A DNA stretch of 64,000 nt. Source: Modestobacter sp. DSM 44400. GTDB lineage: Bacteria > Actinomycetota > Actinomycetes > Mycobacteriales > Geodermatophilaceae. The stretch lies in assembly GCF_900107175.1 (NCBI RefSeq), contig NZ_FNOZ01000008.1:1-64000 (forward strand), read 5' to 3'. Positions 1-24,750 of the stretch are shown here, one piece after another. The stretch's first letter is position 1. Each line of letters opens with the position of its first letter. The notes under the pieces are model-generated. The model worked only from the letters and a program-made list of their open reading frames with translations, did not search any database and was not told the DNA's origin. Made by a program: the position numbers and the translations under genes.

Positions 1-753
1 CCGGCCCGCATCCCGTTCCCGGTGATGCATGTGGACACCGGGCACAACTTCCCCGAGGTTCTCGGGTACCGGGACCGGCGGGTCGCTGAGACCGGGGTCC
101 AGCTGATCGTGGCCTCGGTGCAGGAGGCGATCGACAACGGCCGGGTGACCGAGCAGACCGGGCCGCGGGCCAGCCGCAACCCGTTGCAGACCGTCGCCCT
201 GCTCGACGGCATCGAGAAGCACCAGTTCGACGCCGCTTTCGGTGGCGCGCGCCGCGACGAGGAGAAGGCCCGGGCCAAGGAGCGCGTCTACTCCTTCCGC
301 GACGAGTTCGGCCAGTGGGATCCCAAGAACCAGCGTCCGGAGCTCTGGTCGCTCTACAACGGCCGGCACCACCGCGGTGAGCACATCCGGGTCTTTCCGA
401 TCTCCAACTGGACCGAGCTGGACATCTGGCAGTACATCGGCCGGGAGGGGATCGGCCTGCCGTCGATCTACTTCTCCCACCGCCGGGAGGTGTTCCTCCG
501 GGACGGGATGCTGCTGTGGCCCAACGAGCACCTGCGGCCGATGGAGGGTGAGGAGACGTTCGAGGAGACGGTGCGCTACCGCACCGTCGGTGACGTCACC
601 TGCACCGGCGCGGTGGAGTCCACGGCGAGCACCGTCGAGGCGATCGTCGAGGAGGTGGCCGGCACGCACGTCACCGAGCGGGGTGCGACCCGCGCCGATG
701 ACCGGGCCACCGAGGCGGCCATGGAAGACCGCAAGCGTGAGGGGTACTTCTGA
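1..753 (+). CDS. cysD: sulfate adenylyltransferase subunit 2 (CysD), 5' end outside the window
   Basis: CysD is the PP-loop ATP pyrophosphatase subunit of the CysDN ATP sulfurylase, which makes adenosine 5'-phosphosulfate from ATP and sulfate in the cytoplasm. The frame is open from base 1 and continues into a typical CysD body with HVDTGHNFPE near the visible start, a GGARRDEEKARAKER block and the tail KREGYF. The GTG at 22 is not the real start, because the HVDTG motif lies immediately after it and family members carry roughly 50 residues before that point, including the nucleotide-binding SGGKDS-type motif, which is missing here only because the window begins. The stop overlaps the cysN start (TGATG), so the two subunits are translationally coupled. 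Confidence is high. Confidence 0.96.
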   Translation, partial: PARIPFPVMHVDTGHNFPEVLGYRDRRVAETGVQLIVASVQEAIDNGRVTEQTGPRASRNPLQTVALLDGIEKHQFDAAFGGARRDEEKARAKERVYSFRDEFGQWDPKNQRPELWSLYNGRHHRGEHIRVFPISNWTELDIWQYIGREGIGLPSIYFSHRREVFLRDGMLLWPNEHLRPMEGEETFEETVRYRTVGDVTCTGAVESTASTVEAIVEEVAGTHVTERGATRADDRATEAAMEDRKREGYF

Positions 754-1994
754 TGGAGATGCTGCGGGTCGCCACCGCCGGATCGGTGGACGACGGCAAG
801 TCGACGCTCATCGGCCGGTTGCTGTACGACACCAAGTCGATCTTCACCGACCAGCTGGAGGCCGTCGAACGCACCAGCGCCGCACGCGGTGATGAGTACA
901 CCAACCTGGCGCTGCTCACCGACGGTCTGCGGGCCGAGCGGGAACAGGGCATCACCATCGACGTCGCCTACCGCTACTTCGCGACGCCGAAGCGGAAGTT
1001 CATCATCGCCGACACCCCGGGGCACATCCAGTACACCCGGAACATGGTCACCGGCGCCTCGACGGCCAACGCCGCGCTGATCCTCATCGACGCCCGCAAG
1101 GGCATCCTGGAGCAGAGCCGGCGGCACGCGTTCCTGGCCTCCCTGCTGCGCGTTCCGCACCTGGTGCTGTGCGTGAACAAGATGGACCTCGTCGACTACG
1201 ACCAGGGTGTCTTCGACGCGATCGCCGAGGAGTTCCGGCATTTCGCCGCCAAGCTGGAGATCGGGGACCTCACGGTCATCCCGGTGTCCGCGCTGGCCGG
1301 GGACAACGTGGTGACCCGCTCGGTGAACATGCCGTGGTATGAGGGGACCTCGCTGCTGCACCACCTGGAGGAGCTGCACATCGCCTCCGACCGGAACCTG
1401 ATCGACGCCCGGTTCCCGGTGCAGTACGTCGTCCGCCCGTTCTCCGGCTCGCATCTGGACTACCGGGGCTATGCCGGCCAGGTGGCCGGCGGGGTCTTCA
1501 AGCCCGGGGACGACGTGGTGGTGCTGCCCTCGGGGTTGCCGTCGAAGATCGCCGCCATCGAGACCATGGACGGACCGGTCGAGGAGGCGTTCGCGCCGAT
1601 GTCGGTCACCATCCGGCTCACCGACGAGATCGACATCTCCCGCGGCGACATGATCTGCCGGCCGAACAACCAGCCGGGCGTCTCCCAGGACGTCGACGCC
1701 ATGGTCTGCTGGATGGGCGACGAGCCGATGCGCCCGGGCGGCAGGTACGCCATCAAGCACACCACCCGGGCCGCGCGGACCATGGTGAAGGGCCTGCGCT
1801 ACCGACTCGACGTGAACTCCCTGCACCGCGACGAGCAGGCCGCCACCCTGGGCCTCAACGAGATCGGCCGGCTGCAACTACGCGTGACCGCGCCGCTGTT
1901 CACCGACCCGTACCGCACCAACCGGGCGACCGGCAGCTTCATCCTCATCGACGAGGGCACCAACGCCACCGTCGCCGCCGGGATGGTGCTCTGA
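753..1994 (+). CDS. cysN: sulfate adenylyltransferase subunit 1 (CysN)
   Basis: CysN is the EF-Tu-like GTPase subunit of ATP sulfurylase; GTP hydrolysis drives APS synthesis by CysD. The 413-residue protein shows the G1 loop GSVDDGKST (about residues 10-18), an effector region with EREQGITIDVAYRYF, G3 as DTPGH (near 88-92) and G4 as NKMD (near 143-146), followed by the beta-barrel domains. It stops without a C-terminal adenylylsulfate kinase domain, so it is a plain CysN rather than a CysNC fusion; the kinase is encoded separately on the other strand at 3862-4754. The ATG shares one base with the cysD stop. A strong hairpin follows 20 bp after the stop. Confidence 0.96.
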   Translation: MEMLRVATAGSVDDGKSTLIGRLLYDTKSIFTDQLEAVERTSAARGDEYTNLALLTDGLRAEREQGITIDVAYRYFATPKRKFIIADTPGHIQYTRNMVTGASTANAALILIDARKGILEQSRRHAFLASLLRVPHLVLCVNKMDLVDYDQGVFDAIAEEFRHFAAKLEIGDLTVIPVSALAGDNVVTRSVNMPWYEGTSLLHHLEELHIASDRNLIDARFPVQYVVRPFSGSHLDYRGYAGQVAGGVFKPGDDVVVLPSGLPSKIAAIETMDGPVEEAFAPMSVTIRLTDEIDISRGDMICRPNNQPGVSQDVDAMVCWMGDEPMRPGGRYAIKHTTRAARTMVKGLRYRLDVNSLHRDEQAATLGLNEIGRLQLRVTAPLFTDPYRTNRATGSFILIDEGTNATVAAGMVL

Positions 1995-2014
1995 CCCGGT
2001 AGACGTCCGTCCTC

Positions 2015-2054
2015 AAGAACTCCGTACCCGGCCAACGCCGGGTGCGGAGTTCTT
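2015..2054 (+). terminator. hairpin terminator after cysDN
   Basis: Arms 2015-2031 and 2038-2054 pair over 17 bp with a single G-U wobble and a 6-nt loop (CCAACG). It sits 20 bp after the cysN stop. No long T-tract follows, as is usual in high-GC actinobacteria. Confidence 0.8.
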
Positions 2055-2176
2055 GCGTGCGGGTGGTCGACCTGCGGCGACTGCTCGGCGTGGCGGATCG
2101 ACCGTGTGGGTCGTCAAGTGCAGCGACCCCACGCTACGACGGAGAAGGTGTCGTCGGTCACTGAGGTGGCGGGACG

Positions 2177-2484: not shown

Positions 2485-2676
2485 CCCCGACGTCTCGGTC
2501 GAGGCGGGGCCGGCAGCGGACTATCCAGTCATCCCTCAGCGCGCTCGAAGGCAGCCTGGGATACCGACCGACGTGAAAGGCCAGCGGCCCCCACCACGCG
2601 TCGACCACCTGAAGACTGATGGTCTCCGAGCGGAACGCTTCGATCAGTTGCCCGCCGGCAGTTCAGGGAGCACAGA

Positions 2677-3663
2677 TCAGTGCGGGATGAACGGCGACAG
2701 GGCGTCCGCACCGCTCGGACGACGGCGCGGCGGGCGGCGGCGCTGCTGCCAGACGAACGGCGCCTCGCCGTGCCGCACGCGCATCCATGCCCAGGCGGCT
2801 GCGCCGACGGTTATCGCGGTGCCGGTGACGATCAGGACCATGCCGGTGGAGGCGCCGAGGAGCTTGGTACCCGAGGCCAGCATGATCACCGCCAGCGCCC
2901 GGCGGACCAGGCTACCGGGCGAGCGGGAGGACACCCGTGCACCGATCCAGACGCCTGGGATCGCGCCGACCACAATGCTCCCGGTCAACCCCAGAGTGAA
3001 GTCGCCGAAGAGGATGTGTCCCAACGACGCGGAGGCGACCAGCGGTACGGCCTGGACGAGGTCGGTGCCGACGAGCTGGCCGACCTTGATGGTCGGATAG
3101 AGCAGCAGCAGGCAGACGATCATGATCGAGCCGGCTCCGACTGAGGTCATGCCGACGATCAGGCCACCGGCCGCGCCGACCAGCACGGTGGCAAGCCGTC
3201 GCACCGGCACGGAGGAGAGGTCCGGCTCGGGCGCCTCGGGGCGGCCCCGACGCCGCTCACGCTCACGCAGCTTCAGGTAGGACTTCGCAGCCATGGCGCC
3301 CGAGGCGACCACCAGGATCGCGCCGAGCGCGACCAGCAGGAAATCCTGCACGCCGGCGCCGTCGCCGAAGAGCCGAAGCAGCAGTACTCCCGTGAACGCG
3401 CCGGGAACGGAACCCAGACACAGCCACGTGACCATGGCGAGATGGACGGTTCCGCGGCGCAGGTGCACGATCCCGCCGATCGGCTTCATGAAGAAGCTGG
3501 CGACGACGTCACTGGAGACGGCGGCCAGCGGGGAGACGCCGAAGAAGAAAACCAGGATGGGGGTCATCAGAGCCCCGCCGCCCATCCCGGTCAGGCCGAC
3601 GACCAGCCCGACCAACAGGCCGGCGACAGCGAGGTTCGGATCCCACCATCCCATTGCCGTCAC
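2677..3663 (-). CDS. TauE/SafE (TSUP) family transporter
   Basis: This is a sulfite/sulfate-exporter-type integral membrane protein of 328 residues. It has about eight hydrophobic segments in the usual two-repeat layout: a first repeat with LVGLVVGLTGMGGGALMTP and the conserved FGVSPLAAVSSD, and a second repeat with GAAGGLIVGMTSVGAGSIM followed by GQLVGTDLVQA. A charged cytoplasmic linker (KLRERERRRGRPE) separates the repeats, and the C-terminus is Arg-rich. Family members move sulfite, sulfoacetate, taurine-derived sulfonates or other organic anions. Its place between cysDN and cysC, on the cysC strand, suggests a sulfur-oxyanion role. The ATG at 3663 was taken; an in-frame ATG nine bases later (MGWWDPN) is equally possible. 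Confidence 0.85.
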   Translation of the reverse strand: MTAMGWWDPNLAVAGLLVGLVVGLTGMGGGALMTPILVFFFGVSPLAAVSSDVVASFFMKPIGGIVHLRRGTVHLAMVTWLCLGSVPGAFTGVLLLRLFGDGAGVQDFLLVALGAILVVASGAMAAKSYLKLRERERRRGRPEAPEPDLSSVPVRRLATVLVGAAGGLIVGMTSVGAGSIMIVCLLLLYPTIKVGQLVGTDLVQAVPLVASASLGHILFGDFTLGLTGSIVVGAIPGVWIGARVSSRSPGSLVRRALAVIMLASGTKLLGASTGMVLIVTGTAITVGAAAWAWMRVRHGEAPFVWQQRRRPPRRRPSGADALSPFIPH

Positions 3664-3861
3664 CCCGTCCGTTCGAAGTCGCGCGCTGCCGTGCCCGGTC
3701 CGCTCGGCGCACTCGGCACGTCGGGAGGCTGGGATACGGTCGATCCGCTGAGCACGCTAGGGCACCCGCGGGACCGGCAGGAGCCCGCTCACTCGTTGGA
3801 GGTGCCCGCCGGCGTCGGGGCCGCGCCGGCTCCCTCGCGACGCCGCATGCCCAGTCGAGGG

Positions 3862-4754
3862 CTACTCGGCGCCGCTGACGGCCAGCACGCGAGCCAGTAC
3901 CAGTCGGGCGCTGCAGTCCACGCTGGACGAGCGGGTGTCGATGGTGAGCTCGGCATCGTTCGGCGCCTCGTACGAGTCGCCGATCCCGGTGAACTCGGGG
4001 ATGTCCCCACGGCGGGCCTCTGCATAGAGACCCGTGCGTTCGCGTGCCTCGCACTCGTCCATCGGCGTGGCGACATGGACCAGGACGAACGAGCCGGGGC
4101 CGGCCTGGCCCTCCACCAGCAGGCGGGCGTCGGCCCGGGTGGCGGTGTAGGGAGCGATCGGGGCGCAGACGGCAATCCCACCGTGCTTGGCGATCCGGCC
4201 GGCGACCCAGCCGATCCGACGCACGTTGGTGTCGCGATCCGCCTTCGAGAAGCCGAGCCCGGCCGAGAGGTGGGTGCGCACCTCATCGCCGTCCAGCAGC
4301 GTCACGGTTCGGCCTGACTCGACCAGCAACTCGACCAGCCGGCCGGCGATCGTCGACTTCCCGGCGCCGGAGAGACCGGTGAACATCACGGCCAGGCCGC
4401 CGGTGCTCGGCGCCGCCACCAGGACCCGGCTCCCCAGCGGCTCGGCCCCGTAGGTGGCGACCAGACACGACCAGCTCGCCTCGGGATCGGCGGCGGTGAC
4501 GGGCACCGGCACGACGATGACCTCTCGTCCCCCCCGCGTCGGGCGAGTTCCTCGCGCACCGCGGCGGGGGAGCGCCAGCGGGGGATCTCCCGGACGGTGA
4601 GTCGTCCGTCGTCCCGGGTGGCCACGAGCACTCCCTCGGCGTCCTCGAGCTCGGTCGCCTCCGGGAGGTCGGGAACCGCGCTGACCAGACCGAAGCCATA
4701 CCGCGCCAGCGCCGCAAGTTGTGCATCGGAGAGCCGGGCCCGGGAGTTCGCCAT
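3862..4754 (-). CDS. cysC: adenylylsulfate kinase (CysC) with N-terminal extension, frameshifted in this sequence
   Basis: CysC phosphorylates APS to PAPS, the sulfate donor of sulfotransferases. The kinase part reads cleanly from about 4520 to 3862: P-loop GLSGAGKST, LLDGDEVR, FSKADRDTNVRRIGWVA, then a C-terminal lid with CEARERTGLYAEARRG and FTGIGDSYEAP. An N-terminal extension of about 75 residues (MANSRARLSDAQLAALARYG..., ending AVREELARRGG) lies in a different frame starting at ATG 4754. The frames meet at a run of seven C on the plus strand (4529-4535). The span is 893 nt, one short of a multiple of three; one more G on the coding strand gives a continuous protein of about 297 residues. 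A sequencing error, phase variation or a real mutation are all possible. I do not recognise the extension. Without it, translation could begin at a GTG near 4511. Confidence 0.8.
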
Positions 4755-5025
4755 GGGAGCTGAGTCTCCCCATACCGAGGACCGGGTGGAGTGGCCGGAC
4801 GCCCCGCCCCACTCCCACGGGTCGACTCGTGAGCGCCCCTCGGTCCCGGGTCAGCGACCCTCGGTGCGAGCGCATCGCAGCTTTACGGGTAACATGCTCG
4901 CATTGCCCGGCGAGGGAGACGGTCCGACCGTGCTCCGTGATCGACGTGCGTCCGCCCTCCAGGGGTGTGCCGCGCTCGTGCGCTGAGCACACTGACCCGA
5001 TTCACCCTGTTGAGGAGCACATCCC
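4755..5025. promoter_or_regulatory. divergent intergenic region between cysC and rplY
   Basis: No gene is seen in this 271-bp gap. It must hold the promoters of cysC (leftward) and rplY (rightward). A plausible rightward -10 is TAACAT near 4890, in a local AT-richer patch (TTTACGGGTAACATGCT), giving a leader of over 100 nt. The rplY ribosome-binding site GAGGAG lies 8-13 bp before its GTG. I see no riboswitch. Confidence 0.4.
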
Positions 5026-6508: not shown

Positions 6509-8041
6509 ATGGCGTTGGCGGAAGAGCGGTGGTTCACCGGTCACCCGGGATCCTCCGGCACCGTCCTCGGGTCACCCACCGGGCTGTGGGCCCCGTCGGG
6601 CGACGCGCTGGTCCCGGAGCTCCGCGCCGGGCACCGCGGGCGACGCCGCTGGCTGGTCCGCTACCGCCGTTCGGTGCTGGCGCTGGACCTGGCAATCGCC
6701 TGTGTCGTGGGCCTGGTGACCGTGCTGGTGCCGCTGACCAACGGCCCATTCGGGGAGCAGCGCCAGGAGTGGCTCGGCGTGCTCGTCCCGCTGCTGTGGC
6801 TGGCGCTGGCCGGCCTGCGCAACGCCTACGACCCGCGCGTCTTCGGTAGCGGCAGCGAGGAGTACCGGCGCGTGGCCGCGGTCGGCGTTCTCATGCTTGC
6901 CACGGTCGCCTTCGTCAGCTACGCGCTGGACCTCGACCTCCCGCGCACCCTGGTGGTGTTCTGTCTGCCTGCGCTCACCGCCGCCGTGCTGGTGGGCCGC
7001 TACGTGGCTCGCAAGACGCTGCACCGGGCGCGGTCGGCCGGTCGGTGTCTCAAGCGCGTCGTCGCCGTGGGCCGCGAGGGCGCCGTCCTGGAACTGGTCG
7101 AGCACCTCAACCGCGAGCGCTACGCCGGCATGCTGGTGGTCGGGGCGTGTGTGCCCGATCCCGAGACGGCCGACCGGCTGGTCCGGGCCGGTGTGCCGGT
7201 GGCCGGCTCCCTCGACGACGTCGCCGAGGTGGTCCGGCAGATGGACGCCGACACCGTCGCGGTCACCTCGGCCAGCGAGACCGCCGCTCTCTACCTGCGC
7301 CGGCTGACGTGGCAGCTGGAGGGCAGCGGCGTCGAGGTGCTCGTGTCGCCCGGGCTCATCGAGGTGGCTGGTCCGCGACTGCACATCCGGCCCTTCGTCG
7401 GCCTGCCCCTGCTGTCGGTGGAGGAGCCGGAGTTCAGCGGCTGGCGGCGGCTGGTCAAGGGCAGCATCGACCGGGTCGCGGCGGCGGTGCTGCTGGTCGT
7501 CGCCTTCCCGGTGCTGGCCGGCATCGCGCTGGCCGTGCGGCTGTCGGGCCCGGGCCCGGTGCTGTACCGGCAGGAGCGGGTGGGGCTGGGGGGTCGGCTG
7601 TACACGATGTACAAGTTCCGCAGCATGGTCGTCGACGCCGAGGCGCGACTGGCGGCGCTGCAGACCGCCAACGAGGGCGAGGGGCTGCTGTTCAAGTTGC
7701 GCCACGACCCGCGGGTCACCCCCGTCGGCCGCTGGCTGCGCCGGTTCTCCCTCGACGAGCTCCCCCAACTGCTCAACGTCCTCGGCGGCGCGATGTCGCT
7801 GGTCGGCCCCCGGCCGCCGCTGCCCACCGAGGTCGAGCGCTACGACAGCTCCGTCCGCCGCAGGCTGCTCGTACGCCCGGGCCTGACCGGCCTGTGGCAG
7901 ATCTCCGGCCGCAGCGACCTCTCCTGGGAAGACTCGGTGCGCCTGGACCTCCGCTACGTGGAGAACTGGTCGCTCGCCCTCGACGTCCTGATCCTGTGGA
8001 AGACCGCCGCCACGGTGCTCGGGAGCCGCGGAGCCTACTGA
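6509..8041 (+). CDS. polyprenyl glycosylphosphotransferase (priming sugar transferase)
   Basis: This enzyme attaches the first sugar-1-phosphate to undecaprenyl phosphate to start a polysaccharide repeat unit. It has 510 residues. An N-terminal half with four or five membrane helices (about residues 55-165) is followed by a soluble nucleotide-binding-like domain (about 175-295), a further membrane hairpin (VAAAVLLVVAFPVLAGIALA, about 325-345) and the catalytic sugar-transferase domain: GPVLYRQERVGLGG, MYKFRSMVVDAE, LRRFSLDELPQLLNV, SLVGPRPPLPTEV and RPGLTGLWQISGRS. The layout matches WbaP/CpsE-type enzymes, so hexose-1-phosphate is the likely substrate, but the sugar cannot be read from sequence. 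A GGGGGG stretch lies just before the ATG. It opens the polysaccharide island on the plus strand. Confidence 0.93.
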   Translation: MALAEERWFTGHPGSSGTVLGSPTGLWAPSGDALVPELRAGHRGRRRWLVRYRRSVLALDLAIACVVGLVTVLVPLTNGPFGEQRQEWLGVLVPLLWLALAGLRNAYDPRVFGSGSEEYRRVAAVGVLMLATVAFVSYALDLDLPRTLVVFCLPALTAAVLVGRYVARKTLHRARSAGRCLKRVVAVGREGAVLELVEHLNRERYAGMLVVGACVPDPETADRLVRAGVPVAGSLDDVAEVVRQMDADTVAVTSASETAALYLRRLTWQLEGSGVEVLVSPGLIEVAGPRLHIRPFVGLPLLSVEEPEFSGWRRLVKGSIDRVAAAVLLVVAFPVLAGIALAVRLSGPGPVLYRQERVGLGGRLYTMYKFRSMVVDAEARLAALQTANEGEGLLFKLRHDPRVTPVGRWLRRFSLDELPQLLNVLGGAMSLVGPRPPLPTEVERYDSSVRRRLLVRPGLTGLWQISGRSDLSWEDSVRLDLRYVENWSLALDVLILWKTAATVLGSRGAY

Positions 8042-10260: not shown

Positions 10261-10369
10261 GGGACGATCATGGCATCGAACACCCAGATGGTGACCATGA
10301 GTGAACCCGAACGGGTGAGGAGAGCCGTCGACCGCGTGCCAGTTGGGATTTCTCCGGCATGCTTCTTAC

Positions 10370-11167: not shown

Positions 11168-11174
11168 CGCGCCG

Positions 11175-11190: not shown

Positions 11191-11193
11191 GAG

Positions 11194-15894: not shown

Positions 15895-17309
15895 GCCAGC
15901 CTTTCCAGGGACGAGGGGAGCGGGGCCTCACCGGTCGCCCGGCTGGCGCACTGTCCGCGCCACAACGCGGCGATGGACAGGAACGCCACCACCAGGGGCA
16001 TGGTGAGGGAGTTGTAGACGAACATGAAGAACAACGGCAGCGCGCAGGCGAGCAGCCCGGCGTCCCCGATCGGGGTGCGGTTGCGCCGGTAGGCCCACAG
16101 GGAGCGCAGGAAGAAGCCGACGAACAACGCCGCACCCACGTAGCCCTGGGCGACGAGCACCAGCCAAATCTGGCCGTTGCTGCCCAGCGTCGGGTTGCCG
16201 CACCGCGGGCACTTGTCGCTGGCCCCGATCGCGATGGAGTTGCTGCTGCCCAGTGCTGCGCGCGTCGAGCCGAAGCCCAGCACGGGGGAGTGATCCACCA
16301 CCTCCAGCGTGCGCACGGTGGTGAAAGCCCGGATGTCGTTGCTCTTGGGGTTGTCGAACCGCCCCTGGACGATCCCCGACAGGGGCGAGGCCAGCACGAC
16401 CACCGCGGCCAGCACCACGGCGGCGACCAGCCCGATGAGCACCGCCGCCCGACCACGCACGGCGTAGCGCACCGCCGTCACGACGACGATGAGCCCCAGA
16501 CCCGCCCACAGCCCGCGGTTCAGCGAGTAGATGATCGGCACTGCGGCGAGCCCGAGCACGACGACACCCACCGCCCGGCGGCCTGTGTCGCGCTCGCTGA
16601 ACCAGCTCACCACGAACCAGCCCAGCAGCAGCGCCAAGCAGTTGCCCCAGGTGTTGGTGTAGCCGAAGGGCGCCGACGGCCGGGGTGACTCGTACCCGAG
16701 CACCTCCTGTACCTGGGCCGAGGACGGGTGGACCAGGCTCTGCACGAAACCGTTGGACGCCACCGAGTGCGGGAGCAGCAGCTCCACGGGCGAGGTGAAG
16801 GACACGTGCGGCGCGAACGTGCCCAGCAGCCCACCGAGGACGACGACGATGAACAGCCCGCCCAGCTGCCGGGTGAGCCGCCGGCGGGGGAACTCCGACT
16901 CGCTCAGGTTCCCGGCGTACAGCAGGATCACCGTGGCCGAGAGGTATCCGGCGAGGTTGAAGGCGACCGAGATGACCCGGCCGGATGCGGTGTCGGGGAG
17001 GACACCCGGCGGGTTCTCGCCCAGCATCGTCGTGCTGGCCAGCACCCAGAGCAGGAACAGCACCCAGATGCCGAAGCCCGGCGGCGTCGCCACGGGCCGG
17101 TGGTTCACCAGGTGCAGGAGCATCGGGACGGCGAGGATGAAGACGATCAGGGTGCCCATGCCCAGGGCCCACCACAGCGGGTACAGGACAAGCAGGGCGG
17201 TGAGCGGCCACCCCGCCGGCAGCGGCAGCAGCCGCGGCTTGACCGGGGTCTGGGGCTCGTCCGCGCTCAGGAGCGGCGCGGCCGGGGGCGACGAGAGCGG
17301 CCGGCTCAT
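15891..17309 (-). CDS. Wzy/O-antigen ligase-type membrane protein
   Basis: The protein is likely the polymerase or ligase of the glycan. From ATG 17309 it has 472 residues and about 11-12 membrane helices, with an O-antigen ligase-like block: YTNTWGNCLALLLGWFVVSWF, IIYSLNRGLWAGLGLIVVV and VVDHSPVLGFGSTRAALGSS in the large periplasmic loop, followed by an unusual paired-cysteine motif CPRCGNPTLGSNGQIW. The ATG shares a base with a TGA that closes the upstream co-polymerase in another frame (TGATG), which supports a separate gene. As sequenced, however, this frame is also open through the co-polymerase to 19112, so a fusion protein cannot be excluded. Confidence 0.85.
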   Translation of the reverse strand: MSRPLSSPPAAPLLSADEPQTPVKPRLLPLPAGWPLTALLVLYPLWWALGMGTLIVFILAVPMLLHLVNHRPVATPPGFGIWVLFLLWVLASTTMLGENPPGVLPDTASGRVISVAFNLAGYLSATVILLYAGNLSESEFPRRRLTRQLGGLFIVVVLGGLLGTFAPHVSFTSPVELLLPHSVASNGFVQSLVHPSSAQVQEVLGYESPRPSAPFGYTNTWGNCLALLLGWFVVSWFSERDTGRRAVGVVVLGLAAVPIIYSLNRGLWAGLGLIVVVTAVRYAVRGRAAVLIGLVAAVVLAAVVVLASPLSGIVQGRFDNPKSNDIRAFTTVRTLEVVDHSPVLGFGSTRAALGSSNSIAIGASDKCPRCGNPTLGSNGQIWLVLVAQGYVGAALFVGFFLRSLWAYRRNRTPIGDAGLLACALPLFFMFVYNSLTMPLVVAFLSIAALWRGQCASRATGEAPLPSSLERLA

Positions 17310-18971
17310 CAGCCGGCGCCGGTGGGCTGCCGCGGGCTGCCGGCCGGCTGGCCGCCGCGACGTGACGTGGCGTCGTCCGCAGCCGGCGGCGCGGAGCGGT
17401 CCCGGCGGGACGACCCGGTCCTTGCCAGCTCCCGGTCGTCGACCGGGCGGGACGGCGACCGCGCCGGCGCGCTCCTTGCGGGCGCGCGGCGTGGCCACGA
17501 CGACAGCGCCGAGGACCGGGGTGCGCATCGAGGCGAGCTGGCCCCGGGCGTCGATGACGTGCTGGGCGCGGGTCCGGTTCGTCTCCACCACCAGGATGGC
17601 GGCGTCGGCGGAACCGGCGAGGGTCTGCGCGTCTGCACCGCTGGTCGTCGGCGGCGCCTCGATGACGATCCGGCCCGGCCGCTCGAGCAGGGCGTCAACC
17701 AGAGTCTTGAAGCCAGCGGTCTGCAGCAGGGCAGCGGCCTGGTCCCGGTTGGTGCCCGGGCCCAGCACCCGCACCGTGGGCACGTCGGGCAGCGAGTGCA
17801 GCGCCGCGTCGAGCTGCTCCGCACCGGCGAGCACCTCGGACAGGCCCGCGCCGTCCGGCGCGTCCAGCAGCTGCGTGGCGGTGGAGGCGTGGACGTCGCC
17901 GCACACCAGGACGACGTCTTCGCCGGCGCGGCCCAGGGCGGCTGCCAGGTTGGCCGCCACCGGCCCGGCGGCGCCGCTGACGCCGGCGACGGGCAGGACG
18001 CGCGAGCGCTCGGCCATGCCGGCGGCCACGGCGTTGCGGAGCCGGGCGTAGGTGCGGCCCTCCGCGCTCCAGGCGGTGGCGAGCTCGACCCGTTCGGGCG
18101 TGTCGGTCTTCGGGAGGTCGCCGAGGACCGGCACGCCCACCTGGCGGTCGACGTCGTCCGAGCGCCGGACGTAGGGGTCCGAGCGCTGGCGCAGGACGGC
18201 CAGCGCCACACCCAGGAGCAGGCCCACCAGCACCCCGGCCACCAGGTTCAGGCGCAGGTCCGGGCTGCTCGGCGCGGCGGGCAGCGACGCCTGGGTGATC
18301 ACCCGACCCGGGGTGACCGTGATGGCGTCCAGCTGGTTGGCTCGCGCGCCCAGCGAGGAGAGCTGGCTGTTCAGGCTGCTGGCCTGGGCCTGGTTGTAGG
18401 CCTGCGCCGCCGAACCGTCGGGCAGTGTCGCCAGCGTGTCGGTGACCGCCTGCAGCCGCCCGTTCAGGTCGTCGACCTGCGCCTGGATCGACGCCCGGTC
18501 GGACTCCACGGTGGCCTCCGCGGCCGCCCGCCGGTCCTCCAGGTAGGCGCCGGCGAAGGCAGCGGCTCCGGCCTGGGCGTCCTCAGCGGTCGGGCCGTGG
18601 AAGGTGAGGTCCAGGATCTCGGTGTTCGGTGGGACGGAGATCCCCAGCCGGGCCGACAGGTCACCGAGCTCGCCGGTCCAGCCGAGCGTGGCGGCAGCCG
18701 CGCGGACGATCTCCGTGGAGGTCATCAGCTGCGCCTCGGTGTCGAGGTTGATCGTGCCGGCGCGCGAGGAGCTGTCACCGGAGGGCGCCACACCGGTGTC
18801 CGTCACGAGGACGGAGGTCGACGAGCTGTACTGCCGGGGCGCTACGGAGGTGTAGGCGAGCGCCAGGGCGATACCGAGAGTGACGGCGAGGATCACGACC
18901 CACGCCTGGCGGCGCAGTAGCGTCGTGTAGTCGCTGAGCTGTGCGGAGCCCCGAACCGGTGCGGCAGTCAT
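17309..18971 (-). CDS. Wzz-type polysaccharide co-polymerase with degenerate tyrosine-kinase domain, probable frameshift
   Basis: This is a chain-length regulator of the PCP-2/BY-kinase type. ATG 18971 follows GGAGG. The Wzz domain carries TM1 (WVVILAVTLGIALALAYTS, about residues 24-42) and TM2 (LNLVAGVLVGLLLGVALAVL, about 243-262) flanking a periplasmic part. The cytoplasmic domain aligns with CpsD/Wzc kinases, but the Walker A site reads VAGVSGAAGPVAANLAAAL with no GKS/T, and Walker A' reads VLVCGDVH. No tyrosine-rich tail is seen, so kinase activity is unlikely. The span is 1663 nt, one over a multiple of three: near 17445-17451 coding quality moves to the frame with SRPVDDRELARTGSSRRD, which ends at TGA 17309-17311. 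Without the shift the frame runs on into the Wzy-type protein. Confidence 0.8.
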
Positions 18972-19279
18972 CGCTCGTCCTCCCCCATGCAGTGGCCAGC
19001 CGGCCTCACCGATCCGGCGGGCAGGCCGCGGACACCGAGCTGAGCTGGCTGTTTCGACGTCAGTCCTATCACCGGGAGTGGGGGCGGGCGCCTGCCCGCG
19101 GGGTGTCCTCACCCCCCGAGCGAGAGCGGAGAGCGACCGTCTCGGGCACCGTCACCCGTACGGACGAATACGCCGGCCGCGCATGGCCAACGACGAACAC
19201 GCTCTGTGATGATCGCCGCGGTTGCCGACGGCCACGTACGTGCGTGACTCCGCCGAGGGCAGTAGTCGTAGGAGGACCG
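18972..19279. promoter_or_regulatory. divergent promoter region of the polysaccharide operon and secreted propeller protein
   Basis: This 308-bp gap separates the first leftward operon gene from a rightward secreted-protein gene. It ends with ribosome-binding sites on both sides (GGAGG at 19271-19275 on plus; GGAGG just upstream of 18971 on minus). AT-richer patches such as CTGTTTCGACGTCAGTCC (near 19047) could hold promoters; none is a clear consensus. No gene is supported here. Confidence 0.4.
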
Positions 19280-22200
19280 ATGGCGCAGAGGATGCGTTGG
19301 CTCGGTGTACTGGTCGTCGCGGGGATCCTGGCGACGTTGGCATGGGCGCAACCCCCGGTCCTGGCGGTGCAGGCGGCCCAGCAGACGGTGCCCAGCGCCG
19401 TTCCCGCCGCGAACACCCCCACCATTGCCGAGGACACCACGACCGACACGAATGAACGAGTGCTCGCCCTCGCTCAGGCCGGCAGTTCGATCGTCGTCGG
19501 AGGTGACTTCAGGCAGGTGACCAACGCCAAGAGCAACGGCGGCGCCACGTTCACGCGCAACTACCTGTTCGCCTTCGACCAGAGCAGCGGGGCGGTCCTC
19601 ACCTCGTTCGCCCCCGCGGTGGCCGGCCAGGTCAACGCGATCGTGGCCGGTCCGGGCAACACCGTGTTCATCGGTGGTTCCTTCGGCACGGTGAACGGGC
19701 AGACCCGGCGCAACGTCGCCCAGCTGTCGCTGGCCGACGGCTCCGTGACCCCGTTCCGGGTGTCCGGCGTCAACGGCGCCGTCAACGACCTCGCCACGGT
19801 GGGCAACCGACTGCTCCTGGCCGGCAATTTCAACTCCGTCGCCAGCGTCGCCCACGGTGGCCTGGCCGCGGTCAACCCCGCGACCGGCGCTCTCGACGAG
19901 TACATCGGCATCGACGTCGCTGTGAACCACAACTGGCCGGACAAGGGCAGCGCGCGCGCTTCGGTCGGCGTCTCCAAGATCGACGTTTCACCCGACGGCT
20001 CCCGCCTCGTGATGATCGGCAACTTCCGGCTGGCCGACGGACTGGACCGTGACCAGGTCGCGCAGGTGCTGTTGCAGCCCGACGCCGCGGTCGTGGACCC
20101 GAACTGGCGGACCACCCGCTACACGCCGGCCTGTTACTCCTGGGCCTTCGACACCTATCTGCGGGACCTCGACTTCGCCCCGGACGGCAGCTACTTCGTC
20201 ATCGGGGCGACCGGTGGCCACAACACCGGCACGCTCTGCGACACCGTCGCCCGCTGGGACACCGGCGTCACCGGGGCGGACGTCCAGCCGACGTGGGTTG
20301 CCGACTCCGGCGGTGACACGACCTGGTCGGTCGCCGTCACCGACGCCGCCGTCTACGCCGGCGGGCACCAGCGGTGGTTCAACAACCCGAACGGTCAGGA
20401 CTCCGCCGGCCAGGGCGCGGTCGCACGTCCGGGCATCGCCGCCCTCGACCCGCTCAACGGCGTTCCGTTGAGCTGGAATCCCGGGCGCAATCCGCGTGGC
20501 GTGGGCGCTCAGGCGCTGCTCGCCACCGCGGGCGGGCTGTACGTCGGTAGTGACACCGAGTACATCGGCAATCGCCAGTACTCGCGCAGCAAGCTGGCCT
20601 ACTTCCCGCTCGCGGGCGGCACCGCACAGGCCGACCAGACCGCCCGGCCGCTGTCGGCCAACGTCTTCCTGGCCGGTCGCAGCTCGACCGTGACCACCCC
20701 GGCCACGCCGGTCTCGCCCAACGACGTGCTGTACCGGATCAACGCCGGTGGCGGGGCGATTGCGGCCACCGACGGTGGTCCTGCCTGGGATGCCGACACC
20801 AACAGCACCAGTCCGTTGCGCACCTCCGGCAGCAACAGCGCCGGCTACGGGACGGTGCCGGCGACGAACGCCTCCGTGCCGCCCGGCACCCCCACCGCCG
20901 TGTTCAGCAGTGAGCGGTGGGACCCGGCCGGCGACAGCGAGCTGCAGTGGGACCTGGCGGTCCCCGCGGGGCAGGCGGTCGACGTCCGGCTGTACTTCGC
21001 CAACCGCTGCACCTGCACCGCCTCGGTCGGCCAGCGTGCCTTCGACGTCAGCGTCGACGGCAGGCTCGTCCTCGACGACTACGACATCGTCGCCGACGCC
21101 GGTGACCAGACCGGCACCATGAAGACCATCCCAATGACCAGTGACGGGACCATCGACATCGACCTCGGTCACGTGGTCGAGAATCCGCTGATCAACGCGA
21201 TCGAGGTGGTCAAGCGCTCGGCACCGGTGCCCACGCAGATCGCCACCGACGACGTCGTGCAGCGCTGGTTCGACGGGACCACGGCCGGCACCGACTACGT
21301 GCTCCCGCCGACCGACGTCGACTGGGGCGAGGTCCGCGGCACGTTCATCGCCGACGGCCGCCTGTTCTACGGCTACCCGGACGCCTCCGGCGCGTACTAC
21401 CTCTGGTACCGCACCTTCGACGGCGAGACCTTCGGCGAGCCGACCCAGCTCAACCCCTACGAGGACCCCGCCTGGAGCACGGTCGCCACCGGGTCGGGCA
21501 CCAGCGTCTACAAGGGCGTGAAGCCGACCTTCTACACGAGTCAGCTCTCCTCGGTGACCGGCATCGTCTACGCCGGCGGGCGGATCTACTACACCCGGGC
21601 CGACTCGGCCGCCCTGTACTCCCGCGGCTTCTCCCTCGACAGCGGGATCGTCGAGGCCACCGAGACCACCGTGGCCGGGTCCGGCGCCGGGGGCGTGTCC
21701 GGGATGTTCCTGTCCGGCACCGACCTCTACCTGGCGCGCACGGCGACCGGTGACCTGTACCGGGTCGGTCTCGACCGCGGCGTCGTCACCGGTACCCCCA
21801 CCCTGGTCAGCGGTCCCATCCGGGACGGCAAGGACTGGCGGGGCCGGGCCCTGTTCATCGGCCCGGGTAAGGACCGCGGGATCCCCAACGCCGCCCCCGT
21901 GGCGTCGTTCGAGGACGCCTGCTCCGGGCTGTCCTGCTCCTTCGACGCCACGGCGTCGGCGGACAGCGACGGATCGGTCGTCTCCTATGCCTGGGCGTTC
22001 GGCGACGGGGAGAGCGCGGCGGGGGTGACCGCGGCGCACACCTACGCCGAGGCGGGCACCTACCCGGTGACCCTCACGGTCACCGACGACGAGGGCGCGA
22101 CCGGGACGACGACGACCCCGGTCACCGTCGAGCCGGTCCCGGCCGGTGCCGGCATCGAGTTCCGCGACGCGGTCCAGATGACCTCGCGCGGAACCACCTC

Positions 22201-23680
22201 AGTGGCGCTCACCGTGCCCACCTCGGTGCAGGCCGGTGACGGCATGGTCCTTGCCCTGTCGACCAACTCCGCGGTGACCAGCGCGACACCGGCCGGCTGG
22301 GCGCTGTCCGGCACGCAGGCGGCGGGGTCGACGATGACCACGCAGGTCTTCAGCAAGGTGGCGACCGGGACCGACGCGGGGGCCGAGGTCCGGCTCCTGC
22401 TGACCGGATTGGCCAAGGTCACCGCCCAGCTGGCGGCGTACTCCGGCACGGCGACGGGCGGCCCGATCGCGTCCCTGACCGGCGCAACCGACGTCGGGGG
22501 CACCGCGCACACGACGCCGCAGGCCACGGCGGCGTCCGACAGCGTGGTGATGTCGGTCTGGTCGGACAAGTCGTCGGCAGCCCGGTCGTTCACGGCTCCG
22601 GCGGGGGTCACCACCCGCGCGGCCCTGGCCGGCGTCGGCACCGGTGACGTCGCCACGCTGATCGCCGACGGCGGTGCCCCGGTGCCGGCCGGCCTGGTCG
22701 GCGGGCTCACGGCGACCGTGGGGGCGGTGAGCAACCGGGCGACGATGCTGACCATCGTGCTGGCCGCGGCGCCCGCGGTCGCCCCGGTCGCCAACGAGGC
22801 GCCGGTGGCGTCCTTCGAGTCGACGTGCTCGGAACTCACCTGCACCTTCGACGGCACCGGGTCCACCGACGCCGACGGGCAGGTCGCCTCGTGGGCCTGG
22901 GACTTCGGGGACGGCGCGACCGGCACGGGGGCGACGGTGGCGCACACCTACGCCGGTGCGGGCACCCGTCCGGTGGGCCTGACGGTGACCGACGACGACA
23001 GCGCGACCGGGACCACGACGGACCCGGTCACGGTCGCCGCGGCTCCGGCGTCCGCGGTGGCCTTCCGGGACTCCGCCGCTGTCACCACCAAGGGCGGCAC
23101 CAGCGTTGCGCTGACCGTGCCCTCCTCGGTGCAGCCCGGGGACGGCCTGGTGCTCGTGCTGTCGACCAACTCCACGGTCACCGGCACCGCGCCCAGCGGC
23201 TGGAGCCAGGTGGGCACGCAGGTCTCCTCCCCGTCGGTGACCACCCAGGTCTTCCAGCGGGTGGCGGCGGCCGGCGATGCGGGGTCGGCAATCACCGTGT
23301 CGCTCAGCGCGTCGGCCAAGGCGACCCTGCAGCTCCTCGCCTACTCGGGGACGTCCCCGGGCGGACCGGTGACGGCGGTCGCCGGTGCCAGCGACGTGGG
23401 GGGCACCTCGCACACCACGCCGCAGGCCACCACGTCGTCCGCAGCCTGGGTGCTGTCCATCTGGTCGGACAAGCAGAGCGTCGCCCGCACCTGGACCGCC
23501 CCGTCCGGGGTGACCAGCCGCAACAGCCTGGCGGGGATCGGCTCCGGTGACGTCGCCACGCTGGTCGCCGACAGCGGGGCACCGGTGCCGGCCGGTGCCG
23601 TCGGCGGGCACACGGCGGCCGTCCCGAGCGCGAGCAATCGGGCGACGATGCTCACCGTGGTCCTCGGCGCGGCCGGCTGA
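19280..23680 (+). CDS. large secreted protein: propeller-like repeats, malectin domain, two PKD domains, duplicated C-terminal module
   Basis: The 1466-residue product starts at ATG 19280, 4 bp after GGAGG, with a signal peptide (LGVLVVAGILATLAWA). Residues about 50-480 are propeller-like repeats with SSIVVGGDFRQV, TVFIGGSFGTVNGQ and LLLAGNFNSV. A malectin-like carbohydrate-binding domain follows (about 485-645: VDVRLYFANRC, AFDVSVDGRLVLDDYDI). Two PKD domains (about 868-953 and 1172-1254; SYAWAFGDGES, SWAWDFGDGAT) alternate with two copies of an unrecognised module of about 205 residues that begins FRDA/FRDS and ends SNRATML. The PKD-plus-module unit is a tandem duplication of about 301 residues. 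No sortase motif or C-terminal anchor is seen. Likely extracellular or bound to the glycan made next door. Confidence 0.85.
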   Translation: MAQRMRWLGVLVVAGILATLAWAQPPVLAVQAAQQTVPSAVPAANTPTIAEDTTTDTNERVLALAQAGSSIVVGGDFRQVTNAKSNGGATFTRNYLFAFDQSSGAVLTSFAPAVAGQVNAIVAGPGNTVFIGGSFGTVNGQTRRNVAQLSLADGSVTPFRVSGVNGAVNDLATVGNRLLLAGNFNSVASVAHGGLAAVNPATGALDEYIGIDVAVNHNWPDKGSARASVGVSKIDVSPDGSRLVMIGNFRLADGLDRDQVAQVLLQPDAAVVDPNWRTTRYTPACYSWAFDTYLRDLDFAPDGSYFVIGATGGHNTGTLCDTVARWDTGVTGADVQPTWVADSGGDTTWSVAVTDAAVYAGGHQRWFNNPNGQDSAGQGAVARPGIAALDPLNGVPLSWNPGRNPRGVGAQALLATAGGLYVGSDTEYIGNRQYSRSKLAYFPLAGGTAQADQTARPLSANVFLAGRSSTVTTPATPVSPNDVLYRINAGGGAIAATDGGPAWDADTNSTSPLRTSGSNSAGYGTVPATNASVPPGTPTAVFSSERWDPAGDSELQWDLAVPAGQAVDVRLYFANRCTCTASVGQRAFDVSVDGRLVLDDYDIVADAGDQTGTMKTIPMTSDGTIDIDLGHVVENPLINAIEVVKRSAPVPTQIATDDVVQRWFDGTTAGTDYVLPPTDVDWGEVRGTFIADGRLFYGYPDASGAYYLWYRTFDGETFGEPTQLNPYEDPAWSTVATGSGTSVYKGVKPTFYTSQLSSVTGIVYAGGRIYYTRADSAALYSRGFSLDSGIVEATETTVAGSGAGGVSGMFLSGTDLYLARTATGDLYRVGLDRGVVTGTPTLVSGPIRDGKDWRGRALFIGPGKDRGIPNAAPVASFEDACSGLSCSFDATASADSDGSVVSYAWAFGDGESAAGVTAAHTYAEAGTYPVTLTVTDDEGATGTTTTPVTVEPVPAGAGIEFRDAVQMTSRGTTSVALTVPTSVQAGDGMVLALSTNSAVTSATPAGWALSGTQAAGSTMTTQVFSKVATGTDAGAEVRLLLTGLAKVTAQLAAYSGTATGGPIASLTGATDVGGTAHTTPQATAASDSVVMSVWSDKSSAARSFTAPAGVTTRAALAGVGTGDVATLIADGGAPVPAGLVGGLTATVGAVSNRATMLTIVLAAAPAVAPVANEAPVASFESTCSELTCTFDGTGSTDADGQVASWAWDFGDGATGTGATVAHTYAGAGTRPVGLTVTDDDSATGTTTDPVTVAAAPASAVAFRDSAAVTTKGGTSVALTVPSSVQPGDGLVLVLSTNSTVTGTAPSGWSQVGTQVSSPSVTTQVFQRVAAAGDAGSAITVSLSASAKATLQLLAYSGTSPGGPVTAVAGASDVGGTSHTTPQATTSSAAWVLSIWSDKQSVARTWTAPSGVTSRNSLAGIGSGDVATLVADSGAPVPAGAVGGHTAAVPSASNRATMLTVVLGAAG

Positions 23681-23684
23681 GGCT

Positions 23685-23722
23685 CGGCCCCGCCGGCTCC
23701 CTCTGCGGAGCCGGCGGGGCCG
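23685..23722 (+). terminator. perfect 16-bp hairpin terminator
   Basis: Arms 23685-23700 (CGGCCCCGCCGGCTCC) and 23707-23722 pair perfectly with a 6-nt loop. It lies 4 bp after the stop of the secreted propeller protein and before the next gene. Confidence 0.85.
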
Positions 23723-23754
23723 CCCCTACCACCACCATCAGACCGGGGGAGTGC

Positions 23755-24750
23755 ATGACGGCAGGACGAGTACCACTCGACGCCGACGGGCAGCACCCCG
23801 TCCGCCGTCTCAGCAGGCGACGCCGCTGGGTCGTCGTCGCCGCCTCCGCGGCCGTGCTGGCGGCGGTGTCCGCCTTCACCGTCGTGCAGCGGACCACGGA
23901 GACCTACGCGGTCGACTGCCTGGCCGTGGGCGCCCATGCCGAGAGTGCCGGCGGGGGCCGGGTCGCTGCCGGGCTGCCGTCGTTCCTCGCGGCCAGCGAG
24001 CAGATCGGGCCGCTGACCGTCCACCGGACCTTCGACTCGGGGCTGCCCGCGACGTTCGCGGCCTCGGCGGCGGCCGACGACCCCGAGGCCGGGGTGCGGT
24101 CCTTCGTGTCGTGGAAGCCGCCGCGGGGTGACTTTCGCGGCGCCGCGCAAGGCGACTACGACGAGCAGGTGACCGCGTGGGCGCGCAGCGTCCCGAACAC
24201 CGGCGTCTACGCCACCGCGTTCCACGAGCCGGAGAACGACATGACCGCCGACGAGTTCGTGGCGATGCAGCGGCACCTGTACCGGGTGGTGAAGCAGGCG
24301 AACCCGACGGTCCGGTGGGGTCCGGTGTACATGGCCTACTGGTGGGACCCGGGCTCACCCGATCACTACGTCGGCGACCCGGCCGCCTGGTGGCCGGGGG
24401 ACGACGCCGCGGACTTCGCGGGCTTCGACTGGTACGGAGCCGACCCCGAGCCGATGACCGGCACGTCGGCGTTCGGCCACTGGTACGCGACGATGGTCGA
24501 CACGGGCGTCCCCCTCTTCATCACCGAATACGGCCAGTACGCGCTGCCTGCCGGCGCCCGACCGGACCCGGCACTGCAGCGGGCCCGCGCTGCGGCGATC
24601 CGCGCCGACGCCGCCTGGATCCGGGCCCATCCCCGGCTCCGCATGTGGGTCTACTGGGACGACACCGGGGCGCGCGGCGACTGGCGGTTGACAGACGCGG
24701 CGTCCCAGCGGGCCTGGCGCGCCGTGGCCAGCAGCGGCTGCGACGGCTGA
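23755..24750 (+). CDS. secreted or membrane-anchored glycoside hydrolase (GH26-like)
   Basis: The 331-residue protein has an N-terminal anchor after an Arg-rich stretch (WVVVAASAAVLAAVSAFTVV, about 26-45) and an extracytoplasmic TIM-barrel-like domain. Candidate catalytic acids fit a retaining glycosidase: FHEPENDM for the acid/base and LFITEYGQY for the nucleophile, with WGPVYMAYWWDPG between and MWVYWDDTGARGDWRL near the end. GH26 or a close clan-A family is my best guess; the substrate is unknown. GGGGGAG lies just before the ATG. It follows the propeller protein and could trim or remodel the exopolysaccharide. Confidence 0.72.
   Translation: MTAGRVPLDADGQHPVRRLSRRRRWVVVAASAAVLAAVSAFTVVQRTTETYAVDCLAVGAHAESAGGGRVAAGLPSFLAASEQIGPLTVHRTFDSGLPATFAASAAADDPEAGVRSFVSWKPPRGDFRGAAQGDYDEQVTAWARSVPNTGVYATAFHEPENDMTADEFVAMQRHLYRVVKQANPTVRWGPVYMAYWWDPGSPDHYVGDPAAWWPGDDAADFAGFDWYGADPEPMTGTSAFGHWYATMVDTGVPLFITEYGQYALPAGARPDPALQRARAAAIRADAAWIRAHPRLRMWVYWDDTGARGDWRLTDAASQRAWRAVASSGCDG

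Follow-up and report, generated by a model that had tools for sequence, protein, structure and literature searches.

Among described bacterial gene clusters, wps-1 of Actinoplanes missouriensis (AMIS_7280-7380, with AMIS_7390), published by Tezuka and Ohnishi in June 2026, is closest to the locus presented here. According to the accessible portion of that paper, the cluster is needed for sporangium formation, and its sulfated polysaccharide is a prediction (PMC13390465). Deletion of wpsH (the counterpart of ST3 below) gave squashed sporangia like those of Wzx, Wzy, and glycosyltransferase mutants; deletion of wpsB (the ST1 counterpart) gave sporangia that were normal by SEM and about tenfold fewer released spores; and deletion of AMIS_7390 caused an “unexpected” sporangium defect. 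Trapped undecaprenol intermediates were offered as the cause of the severe single-gene phenotypes (PMC13390465). Chemical evidence for sulfated polysaccharides exists from cyanobacteria and from some Gram-negative bacteria of marine origin, as far as the available text of the reports goes (PMC8205485, PMC11641403, PMC11766843): sulfate was measured in the synechan of Synechocystis PCC 6803 (PMC8205485), and structures were determined for the sulfated capsules of Vibrio sp. KMM 8419 and Cobetia marina KMM 1449 (PMC11641403, PMC11766843). The original prediction for the present locus called such polymers rarely described in actinobacteria. No actinobacterial sulfated polysaccharide with chemical proof was found in the open-licence literature searched, but the publication of wps-1 qualifies the statement.

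The window is a 64,000-nucleotide stretch of DNA from Modestobacter sp. DSM 44400, a member of the Geodermatophilaceae. A cysD-cysN-tauE-cysC block sits between prs and rplY, a Wzx/Wzy glycan island fills the pth-mfd interval, and rplY and pth separate the island from cysC. The locus probably encodes a Wzx/Wzy-dependent pathway for a predicted sulfated extracellular polysaccharide (capsule or free exopolysaccharide), in the form that the wps-1 type takes in Geodermatophilaceae. The predicted polymer is supported by gene content held in common with wps-1-type clusters of Actinoplanes, by the motifs of the three sulfotransferases, and by the match of ST3 to heparan sulfate sulfotransferases.

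So far as wps-1 is described in the accessible text, both clusters have genes for a GT2, a sulfotransferase, a WecG-type glycosyltransferase, Wzx, a heparan-type sulfotransferase, a kinase-like protein, Wzy, and Wzz, with a neighboring gene of the sulfate adenylyltransferase/APS kinase family. The GT2-ST1-WecG core and the order Wzx, heparan-type sulfotransferase, kinase, Wzy, Wzz of the wps-1 type are both present in the window, and the APS kinase near the cluster is represented by cysC, though this copy is N-terminally damaged. The window differs in its additional sulfotransferase (ST2), priming transferase, and PKD/malectin protein, its hydrolase distantly like GH26, its separate cysD, cysN, and cysC with a cysQ-like gene, and its pth-mfd site. 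The published cluster has GH26, DUF4262, and methyltransferase (wpsF) genes (PMC13390465), and Pfam scans of the window island frames gave no match to DUF4262 or a methyltransferase; the window cluster is classed as a variant of the wps-1 type because these frames gave no DUF4262 match and include a hydrolase only distantly like GH26. Both genes are carried by locus L203 (Actinoplanes lutulentus), as reported for wps-1 in the accessible text (PMC13390465). Identities of window proteins to their eight counterparts in loci L186-L260 range from 33 to 69%; for Actinoplanes, the comparison covered proteins of A. missouriensis congeners. The synechan (xss) cluster, in the available account, resembles the window in its Wzx/Wzy pathway and its two sulfotransferases of distinct subfamilies, but belongs to a different phylum and has eight glycosyltransferases (PMC8205485). 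The Cobetia and Vibrio loci, likewise as described in the available text, include cysN, cysD, cysC, and sulfotransferases, joined in Cobetia by cysQ and a sulfate permease; unlike the window, they have ABC-transporter (Kps) export, Gram-negative hosts, and another glycan (PMC11766843, PMC11641403).

The Wzx/Wzy set is complete in the window by Pfam and NCBIfam matches, that of the polymerase to Wzy_C lying below cut-off. The priming polyprenyl-phosphate sugar-1-phosphate transferase (6509-8041, plus strand; Bac_transf 1.8e-65; TIGR03025 at 424.8 bits, above cut-off) would place a sugar-1-phosphate onto undecaprenyl phosphate. The WpsA-like GT2 (8357-9271, minus, start inferred; Glycos_transf_2 5.6e-21 in a longer open frame) and the WpsC-like WecG/TagA/CpsF glycosyltransferase (10343-11167, plus; Pfam 8.2e-57; TIGR00696 at 140.8 bits, above cut-off) would lengthen this to a repeat of about three sugars. 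In the cytoplasm, the repeat would be sulfated from PAPS by ST1 (WpsB-like; 9268-10260, minus; Sulfotransfer_3 1.8e-11), ST2 (11194-12177, minus; Sulfotransfer_3 5.7e-14), and ST3 (heparan-sulfate-sulfotransferase type, WpsH-like; 13721-14644, minus, start inferred; Sulfotransfer_1 2.8e-13). The Wzx-type flippase (12174-13754, minus; Polysacc_synt 9.6e-9, MatE 1.3e-8) would then flip the unit for polymerization by Wzy (15891-17310, minus, start approximate; Wzy_C 2e-6, 28.1 bits against a curated cut-off of 31.7) and the Wzz-type chain-length/co-polymerase protein, which has a kinase-like C-terminal part (17300-18971, minus, limits approximate; Wzz 9.8e-8; TIGR01007 at 76 bits, below cut-off). 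A beta-propeller/malectin/PKD protein (19280-23680, plus, start approximate; Malectin 5.1e-15, PKD_4 2.4e-43), presumably secreted, and a putative secreted glycosidase (23755-24750, plus) may bind or trim the polymer. The latter has no Pfam match at E<=1 and is at most very distantly GH26-like (a single comparison with an Actinoplanes GH26 gave 23% identity across 255 aa at E=2e-5). The predicted content of three sulfotransferases, a priming transferase, two glycosyltransferases, Wzx, and Wzy near cysD, cysN, and cysC is borne out by a Pfam match for each gene, and Wzz and TauE are likewise supported by Pfam.

In the window, wzz and wzy form a single open frame of 1073 aa, with a frame change near the end of wzz and a tail that looks frame-shifted. 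A Wzz-Wzy fusion was considered and rejected: in five of six relatives the two are separate genes that overlap in different frames (five were scored; the sixth, L089, is without a call), and the other-frame tail of the window ends like theirs.

The same genes bear on where the glycan ends up. It might stay bound to the cell wall or a lipid, as a wall glycopolymer or glycolipid, instead of forming a free exopolysaccharide or capsule. A ligase function is possible because Wzy_C is the Pfam O-antigen ligase family and the match is sub-cut-off, and LytR-CpsA-Psr (LCP) proteins, which attach glycans to the wall, have one representative on another contig (L022). However, the Wzz-type protein together with Wzy suggests long chains, no LCP gene was found by Pfam among the island frames scanned, and the off-contig protein is a single one. 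Wall attachment, which overlaps the main reading, is therefore rather unlikely.

The extracellular sulfated polymer, the preferred product, would draw its PAPS from the genes beside rplY. ATP sulfurylase, comprising CysD (1-753, plus; PAPS_reduct 4.9e-35) and the GTPase subunit CysN (753-1994, plus; GTP_EFTU 4e-42), would make APS, and the APS kinase domain of CysC (3862-4530, minus; APS_kinase 6e-52) would convert it to PAPS. The contig begins inside cysD; contig C96 (L023), whose 1861-bp overlap with it is 100% identical, supplies the 5' remainder of the gene, a cysQ-like gene, and prs. The cysQ-like gene, named from its position and its family (PF00459, tested on the G082 homologue), would encode a phosphatase that clears the by-product PAP. 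A TauE/SafE-family protein (2677-3663, minus; TauE 4.4e-42) is a possible sulfate or sulfite permease. Five relatives have a TauE homologue in the wzz-mfd interval, adjoining wzz in three (G041, G044, and G066) and more distant from it in G046 and G058.

The kinase domain of the window cysC is open. Comparison with two paralogues from this genome shows that its N-terminal domain lacks about 50 residues and that the frame changes, with an N-terminal remnant at 4533-4745 in a different frame. The window copy of the locus could be partly decayed, because cysC is damaged in this way and the frame of wzz is altered. Three strong cysC matches occur in the genome, two of them genes other than this copy; in the other genomes of the genus, exactly one was found in 21 of 22 and none in G011, which is incomplete. 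Nor do the identities give grounds to claim that cysDN was recently acquired from Blastococcus by horizontal transfer. The window cysD and cysN are 88 and 91% identical to those of G041, whose cysN likewise sits between prs and rplY, but they are no outliers, because prs (89%, L185) and mfd (86%) have comparable identities.

A second alternative assigns cysDNC to general sulfur metabolism and explains its proximity to the island solely by two adjacent insertion sites, prs-rplY and pth-mfd. Within the family, the island occupies the identical pth-mfd site in nine genomes (including the partial G066), and cysDNC is at prs-rplY in four of the eight scorable islands versus one of 95 other family genomes (Fisher p=7.7e-5, uncorrected for relatedness). 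The count (n=103) comprises 101 stretches with both prs and rplY, the window, and G041 (prs from L185), and was made without G012, whose contig ends in rplY; an alternative count (n=102) gives p=8.0e-5. G066, in which neither ST1 nor GT2 was found, was still scored as an island; G093 and G095 have ST1 on contigs not seen at pth-mfd, G093 being scored as without island and G095 lacking an rplY match. The linkage that the original prediction expected in close relatives holds for these four islands but fails for the congener G014 and for G046, G058, and G059 (genus group g3), which have the island without cysDNC at prs-rplY. Seven family genomes have cysC alone at that site and no sulfotransferase island, G082 has cysDNC without the island, and a strong APS kinase is present in 39 of 41 family genomes without a match to either sulfotransferase family (lists compared by eye), so that APS kinase was rejected as a general sulfotransferase marker in the family.

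By ST1 alone, 80 loci were collected. In 44 of 45 scorable genomes outside the family, which are related to one another, the sole APS kinase lies 4.9-18.4 kb from ST1, and the linkage spans 19 genus names. The 45 genomes, scorable on one contig, come from 49 of the 80 loci; contig identity was cross-checked by length for 20 of the 49, of which 16 agreed and four (L210, L217, L218, and L233) differed and were dropped, and for the remaining 29 the same contig was assumed (contig number equal to accession number, or a chromosome record). On the stretches examined, seven of the 80 loci also have cysQ-like, cysD, and cysN genes within 10 kb of ST1; in Actinomadura (L236) these three are flanked by the priming transferase and ST1. 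CysH carries a CC...CxxC pattern, which we take to be the mark of APS reductases. The linkage outside the family, the Actinomadura arrangement, and CysH argue against a purely metabolic role, which is improbable; together with the cysQ-like gene by cysD-cysN, the linkage and the CysH pattern favor the predicted use of CysC-made PAPS by sulfotransferases. PAPS linkage is partial within the family and very strong outside it. No earlier report linking an APS kinase to wps-1 was found in the open-licence literature, including the accessible portion of the wps-1 paper (PMC13390465).

The 80 loci also describe the cluster itself: GT2 is present in all 80, WecG in 76, Wzx and ST3 in 72 each, the APH-like kinase in 70, Wzy in 66, Wzz in 62, and ST2 in seven. 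The order and strand of the Wzx-to-Wzz block are kept in all 66 scorable loci (those with at least four of the five genes). The WpsI-like kinase (14641-15894, minus), for which an APH fold was proposed, carries an HGD...DWE motif, presumably the APH-fold signature; its Pfam match is sub-threshold (TCAD9 at 18 bits, where the cut-off is 40).

ST1, ST2, and ST3 are the sole Sulfotransfer_3 matches of the 5.0-Mb genome by Pfam. Motifs that we assign to 5'-phosphosulfate and 3'-phosphate binding are invariant in the alignments of all three (A1-A3), and LGRSG and VRDxRGVAYS are invariant across eight ST1 orthologues. A profile search of solved structures (PDB) matched ST3 to HS 3-OST-5 (2.8e-21) and NDST (1.2e-16); ST1 and ST2 matched solved sulfotransferases only marginally, with no named carbohydrate sulfotransferase among the hits. 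That the substrate of these enzymes is a small molecule or lipid, with the glycan genes as mere neighbors, is very improbable: PF13469 and PF00685 do include small-molecule and lipid sulfotransferases, but ST1 overlaps GT2 at the inferred GT2 start (window 9268-9271), ST3 is flanked by Wzx and the kinase and matches polysaccharide sulfotransferases, and the block is conserved in every scorable locus.

A new feature of the predicted sulfated-polysaccharide cluster is that it appears to consist of two modules with conflicting histories, ST3 having been exchanged with the flippase and kinase and ST1 having stayed with GT2. Across seven islands of the family, the pairwise ST3 distances track those of Wzx and APH (r 0.86, 0.85) and not those of ST1 and GT2 (r 0.28, 0.21). 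Modestobacter forms one clade in the ST1 and GT2 trees; in those of ST3, Wzx, and APH the window groups with G046, a genome from a different genus, and Modestobacter monophyly is rejected (p-AU 1.6e-4, 1e-44, and 3e-6, under a simple LG model and with clades named after the identities had been seen). WecG, whose G046 copy is only 36% identical, was excluded from the trees and main correlations; its seven-genome distances correlate at r 0.35-0.47 with the Wzx module and 0.90-0.94 with GT2/ST1. The conflict was observed in the family alone, because the five genes other than ST3 correlate at r 0.90-0.96 in a 64-locus table; the history of ST3 comes from the seven-genome tables and trees only. Joint exchange is explicable by position alone, because ST3 sits between Wzx and APH. 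It is possible, though doubtful, that sulfation is of two kinds: the ST3 sulfate would license export via the flippase and/or polymerase, and ST1, ST2, and ST4-type enzymes would add strain-variable decoration. The module conflict and the contrast between the wpsH and wpsB deletion phenotypes in A. missouriensis (PMC13390465) speak in favor of this reading. Trapped undecaprenol intermediates, as proposed in the accessible text for wps-1, may instead explain the severe phenotypes (PMC13390465).

Because the sole APS kinase is linked to the sulfotransferase cluster outside the family, PAPS starvation of wps-1, and not a lack of cysteine, may be why sporangia are defective when AMIS_7390 is deleted; the linkage survey gives this unexplained defect a testable reason. 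Desert soil and stone are known habitats of the Geodermatophilaceae, which to our knowledge lack sporangia of the Actinoplanes kind. In this family the cluster would be a modular system whose sulfotransferase sets vary among strains. If ST3 sulfation does license export, variation in ST1, ST2, and ST4-type enzymes would yield a family of sulfation patterns.

The window opens contig C87, one of the 182 that make up a 5.0-Mb genome. Pfam and NCBIfam assignments place cysD, cysN, a TauE-family transporter gene, and an APS kinase gene (cysC) near a glycan island with sulfotransferases, in agreement with the original prediction. The cys genes and the island are separated by rplY and then pth, and mfd follows the island. 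The island products are, in order, a priming transferase, a GT2 glycosyltransferase, the sulfotransferase ST1, a WecG-type glycosyltransferase, the sulfotransferase ST2, the flippase Wzx, the sulfotransferase ST3, an APH-like kinase, Wzy, Wzz, a beta-propeller/malectin/PKD protein, and a putative glycosidase. The contig start interrupts cysD; contig C96 overlaps the window (1861 bp, 100%) and then reaches a cysQ-like gene and prs, and we infer the order prs - cysQ-like - cysD - cysN - tauE - cysC - rplY - pth - island - mfd. At 3862-4992 (reverse strand), the N-terminal domain of cysC is about 50 residues short and has a frame change relative to the paralogues on contigs C132 and C151 of the same genome; this domain, present in the paralogues, has no Pfam name, and the kinase domain in the window is an open frame. 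At 15891-19112 (reverse strand), wzz and wzy form one frame of 1073 aa. Five of six relatives have them as two genes that overlap, so wzz has probably changed frame close to its 3' end, either truly or through an error of sequencing. Elsewhere in the window (44207-49019, reverse strand), a 665-aa VWA-domain protein adjoins an AAA protein of 937 aa whose match is Mg-chelatase-like; the two are perhaps a MoxR/VWA-like pair.

ST1, ST2, and ST3 are the sole Sulfotransfer_3 matches of the genome. The island had been predicted to encode three sulfotransferases, and alignments of 8, 7, and 8 orthologues, respectively, bear this out: a G/P-x-R-x-G-T-type motif and an R-D...S motif, presumably the PAPS sites, are kept in each. 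Against solved structures, the ST3 profile matches the bacterial sulfotransferase 3rnl (3.3e-25), heparan sulfate 3-O-sulfotransferase 5 (2.8e-21), and NDST (1.2e-16); ST1 and ST2 have marginal matches only. The sulfotransferase set differs among islands of the family Geodermatophilaceae (e.g., genome G046 has no ST2 match, a further type, ST4, replaces ST2 in G014, and G058 and G066 have ST4 besides ST2). The ST2 of the MAG G059 (locus L099, 2484-3368, contig C60) begins like the Blastococcus type and is identical to the copy of Modestobacter G012 near its end, a mosaic that may have come from chimeric assembly or from gene conversion.

The CysH of the window genome has a CC...CxxC pattern, which we take to be that of APS reductases, and sulfate assimilation in this genome therefore need not use PAPS. 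There are three strong cysC matches in the genome, compared with one in 21 of 22 congeners. Two more pairs of cysC and cysQ-like genes are found at L021 (G000:C132, 1-3150) and L022 (G000:C151, 479-3233); the C132 pair is accompanied by an adjoining DDE transposase at the contig start and a cysD fragment, and about 8 kb beyond the pair comes a gene for a UDP-glucose/GDP-mannose dehydrogenase. A GH16 glycosidase gene separates the second cysD of the genome from the second cysN, some 4 kb away (L024, G000:C106:28000-42000).

A match to rplY was found in 108 of 112 family genomes, and its neighbourhood was taken from 107 genomes besides the window. A priming-transferase homologue is near rplY in 96 of the 107 (on 95 of the stretches and, in G012, on a neighbouring stretch) and at most 2.5 kb from pth in 92 stretches. 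Because the genes beyond the priming transferase differ between genomes, the pth-mfd interval (L061-L178) is a variable glycan site in the family. The sulfotransferase island occupies this site in only a minority of the fetched genomes (the window, G012, G014, G041, G044, G046, G058, and G059, with a partial island in G066).

The prs-rplY interval contains full cysDN and cysC in five genomes: that of the window, G041, G044, G066, and G082. Of these, G082 is without the island. The proposed co-occurrence of cysDNC with the island in relatives was thus partly upheld: these genes are at prs-rplY in 4 of 8 genomes with the island versus 1 of 95 without it (103 scorable genomes; Fisher p=7.7e-5, uncorrected for relatedness), but the island genomes G014, G046, G058, and G059 have zero cys genes there. 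These four islands count against the reading that PAPS genes are linked to the island, as do seven family genomes with cysC alone at prs-rplY and no island, and the strong APS kinase in 39 of 41 family genomes that match neither sulfotransferase family (lists compared by eye). Six loci (G046:C2, about 646-673 kb; G027:C4; G060:C94; G086:C3; G094:C285; G097:C78) have ST1-like genes of a second, more distant class (136-267 bits), no farther than about 20 kb from an APS kinase. At four of the six, open frames of 715-951 codons may represent fusions, and the class perhaps marks another type of sulfated-glycan cluster.

Beyond the family, the ST1 alignment was used for a scan that yielded 223 loci, the best 80 of which, mostly from Micromonosporaceae, were used. 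Within the stretches examined at these best 80, GT2 is present at 80, WecG at 76, Wzx at 72, ST3 at 72, APH at 70, Wzy at 66, Wzz at 62, and ST2 at 7. In each of the 49 genomes examined behind 50 of the 80 loci, a single APS kinase reaches E<=1e-20. It could be placed on the contig of ST1 in 45 genomes, at 4.9-18.4 kb in 44 of them; the lone exception is Glycomyces artemisiae (134.6 kb). A span of 20 kb to either side would include the APS kinase by chance in less than 1% of genomes of at least 5.8 Mb; the 44 linked genomes are related and therefore not independent. In a Micromonospora locus (L235), an ATP-sulfurylase/APS-kinase fusion adjoins wzz. Seven loci have cysQ-like, cysD, and cysN genes inside the cluster or close to it: two of Actinomadura, two of Actinocatenispora, and one each of Longispora, a MAG, and Blastococcus KM273128.

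The available text on the wps-1 cluster of Actinoplanes missouriensis (Tezuka & Ohnishi, PMC13390465) lists a GT2, a sulfotransferase, a WecG-type glycosyltransferase, DUF4262, GH26, a methyltransferase, Wzx, a heparan-type sulfotransferase, a kinase-like protein, Wzy, and Wzz, adjoined by AMIS_7390 of the sulfate adenylyltransferase/APS kinase family. According to that text, normal sporangium formation requires every wps-1 gene except wpsD, and wpsB deletion leaves a normal appearance by SEM with about tenfold fewer spores released; its authors had not expected the defect of AMIS_7390 and describe the sulfated product as unverified. Eight core genes are common to wps-1 and the window island. 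The island differs by its hydrolase and by the presence of a priming transferase and of one more sulfotransferase, its third; it is filed as a variant of the wps-1 kind of cluster. The eight core genes also occur, with DUF4262 and GH26, in locus L203 of Actinoplanes lutulentus. Synechan is reported as a sulfated polysaccharide with chemical data (PMC8205485, available text), as are Vibrio and Cobetia capsules with PAPS genes in the locus (PMC11641403 and PMC11766843, available texts), a combination with sulfotransferases that the Vibrio authors call a hallmark (PMC11641403).

The comparisons show gene content, linkage, and the exchange of modules. Among seven family islands (5040 label permutations), distances agree between GT2 and ST1 (r 0.93; 8/5040 permutations as high) and among Wzx, ST3, and APH (r 0.85-0.99; 3-6/5040), whereas there is no agreement between the two sets (r 0.21-0.35; 406-869/5040). 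WecG groups with GT2 and ST1, less sharply. In trees with four outgroups under a simple LG model, the three Modestobacter islands form one group by ST1 and by GT2 (bootstrap 99 and 100); the ST3, Wzx, and APH trees reject this grouping and pair the window with G046 (85, 100, and 94, of which the program itself marks only the one for Wzx as strong). All 66 loci that have four or more of the genes keep the order Wzx-ST3-APH-Wzy-Wzz on a single strand, and the block lies either way round relative to ST1 (61 and 5 loci). Distances, trees, and conserved block order together indicate that ST3 is inherited together with the flippase. Judged by the gene families, assembly of the glycan would be lipid-linked, and it would be sulfated in the cytoplasm ahead of flipping, then polymerised and secreted. 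This shared inheritance suggests that the sulfate added by ST3 may be read by the export machinery; gene position could also account for the joint exchange of ST3 and the flippase.
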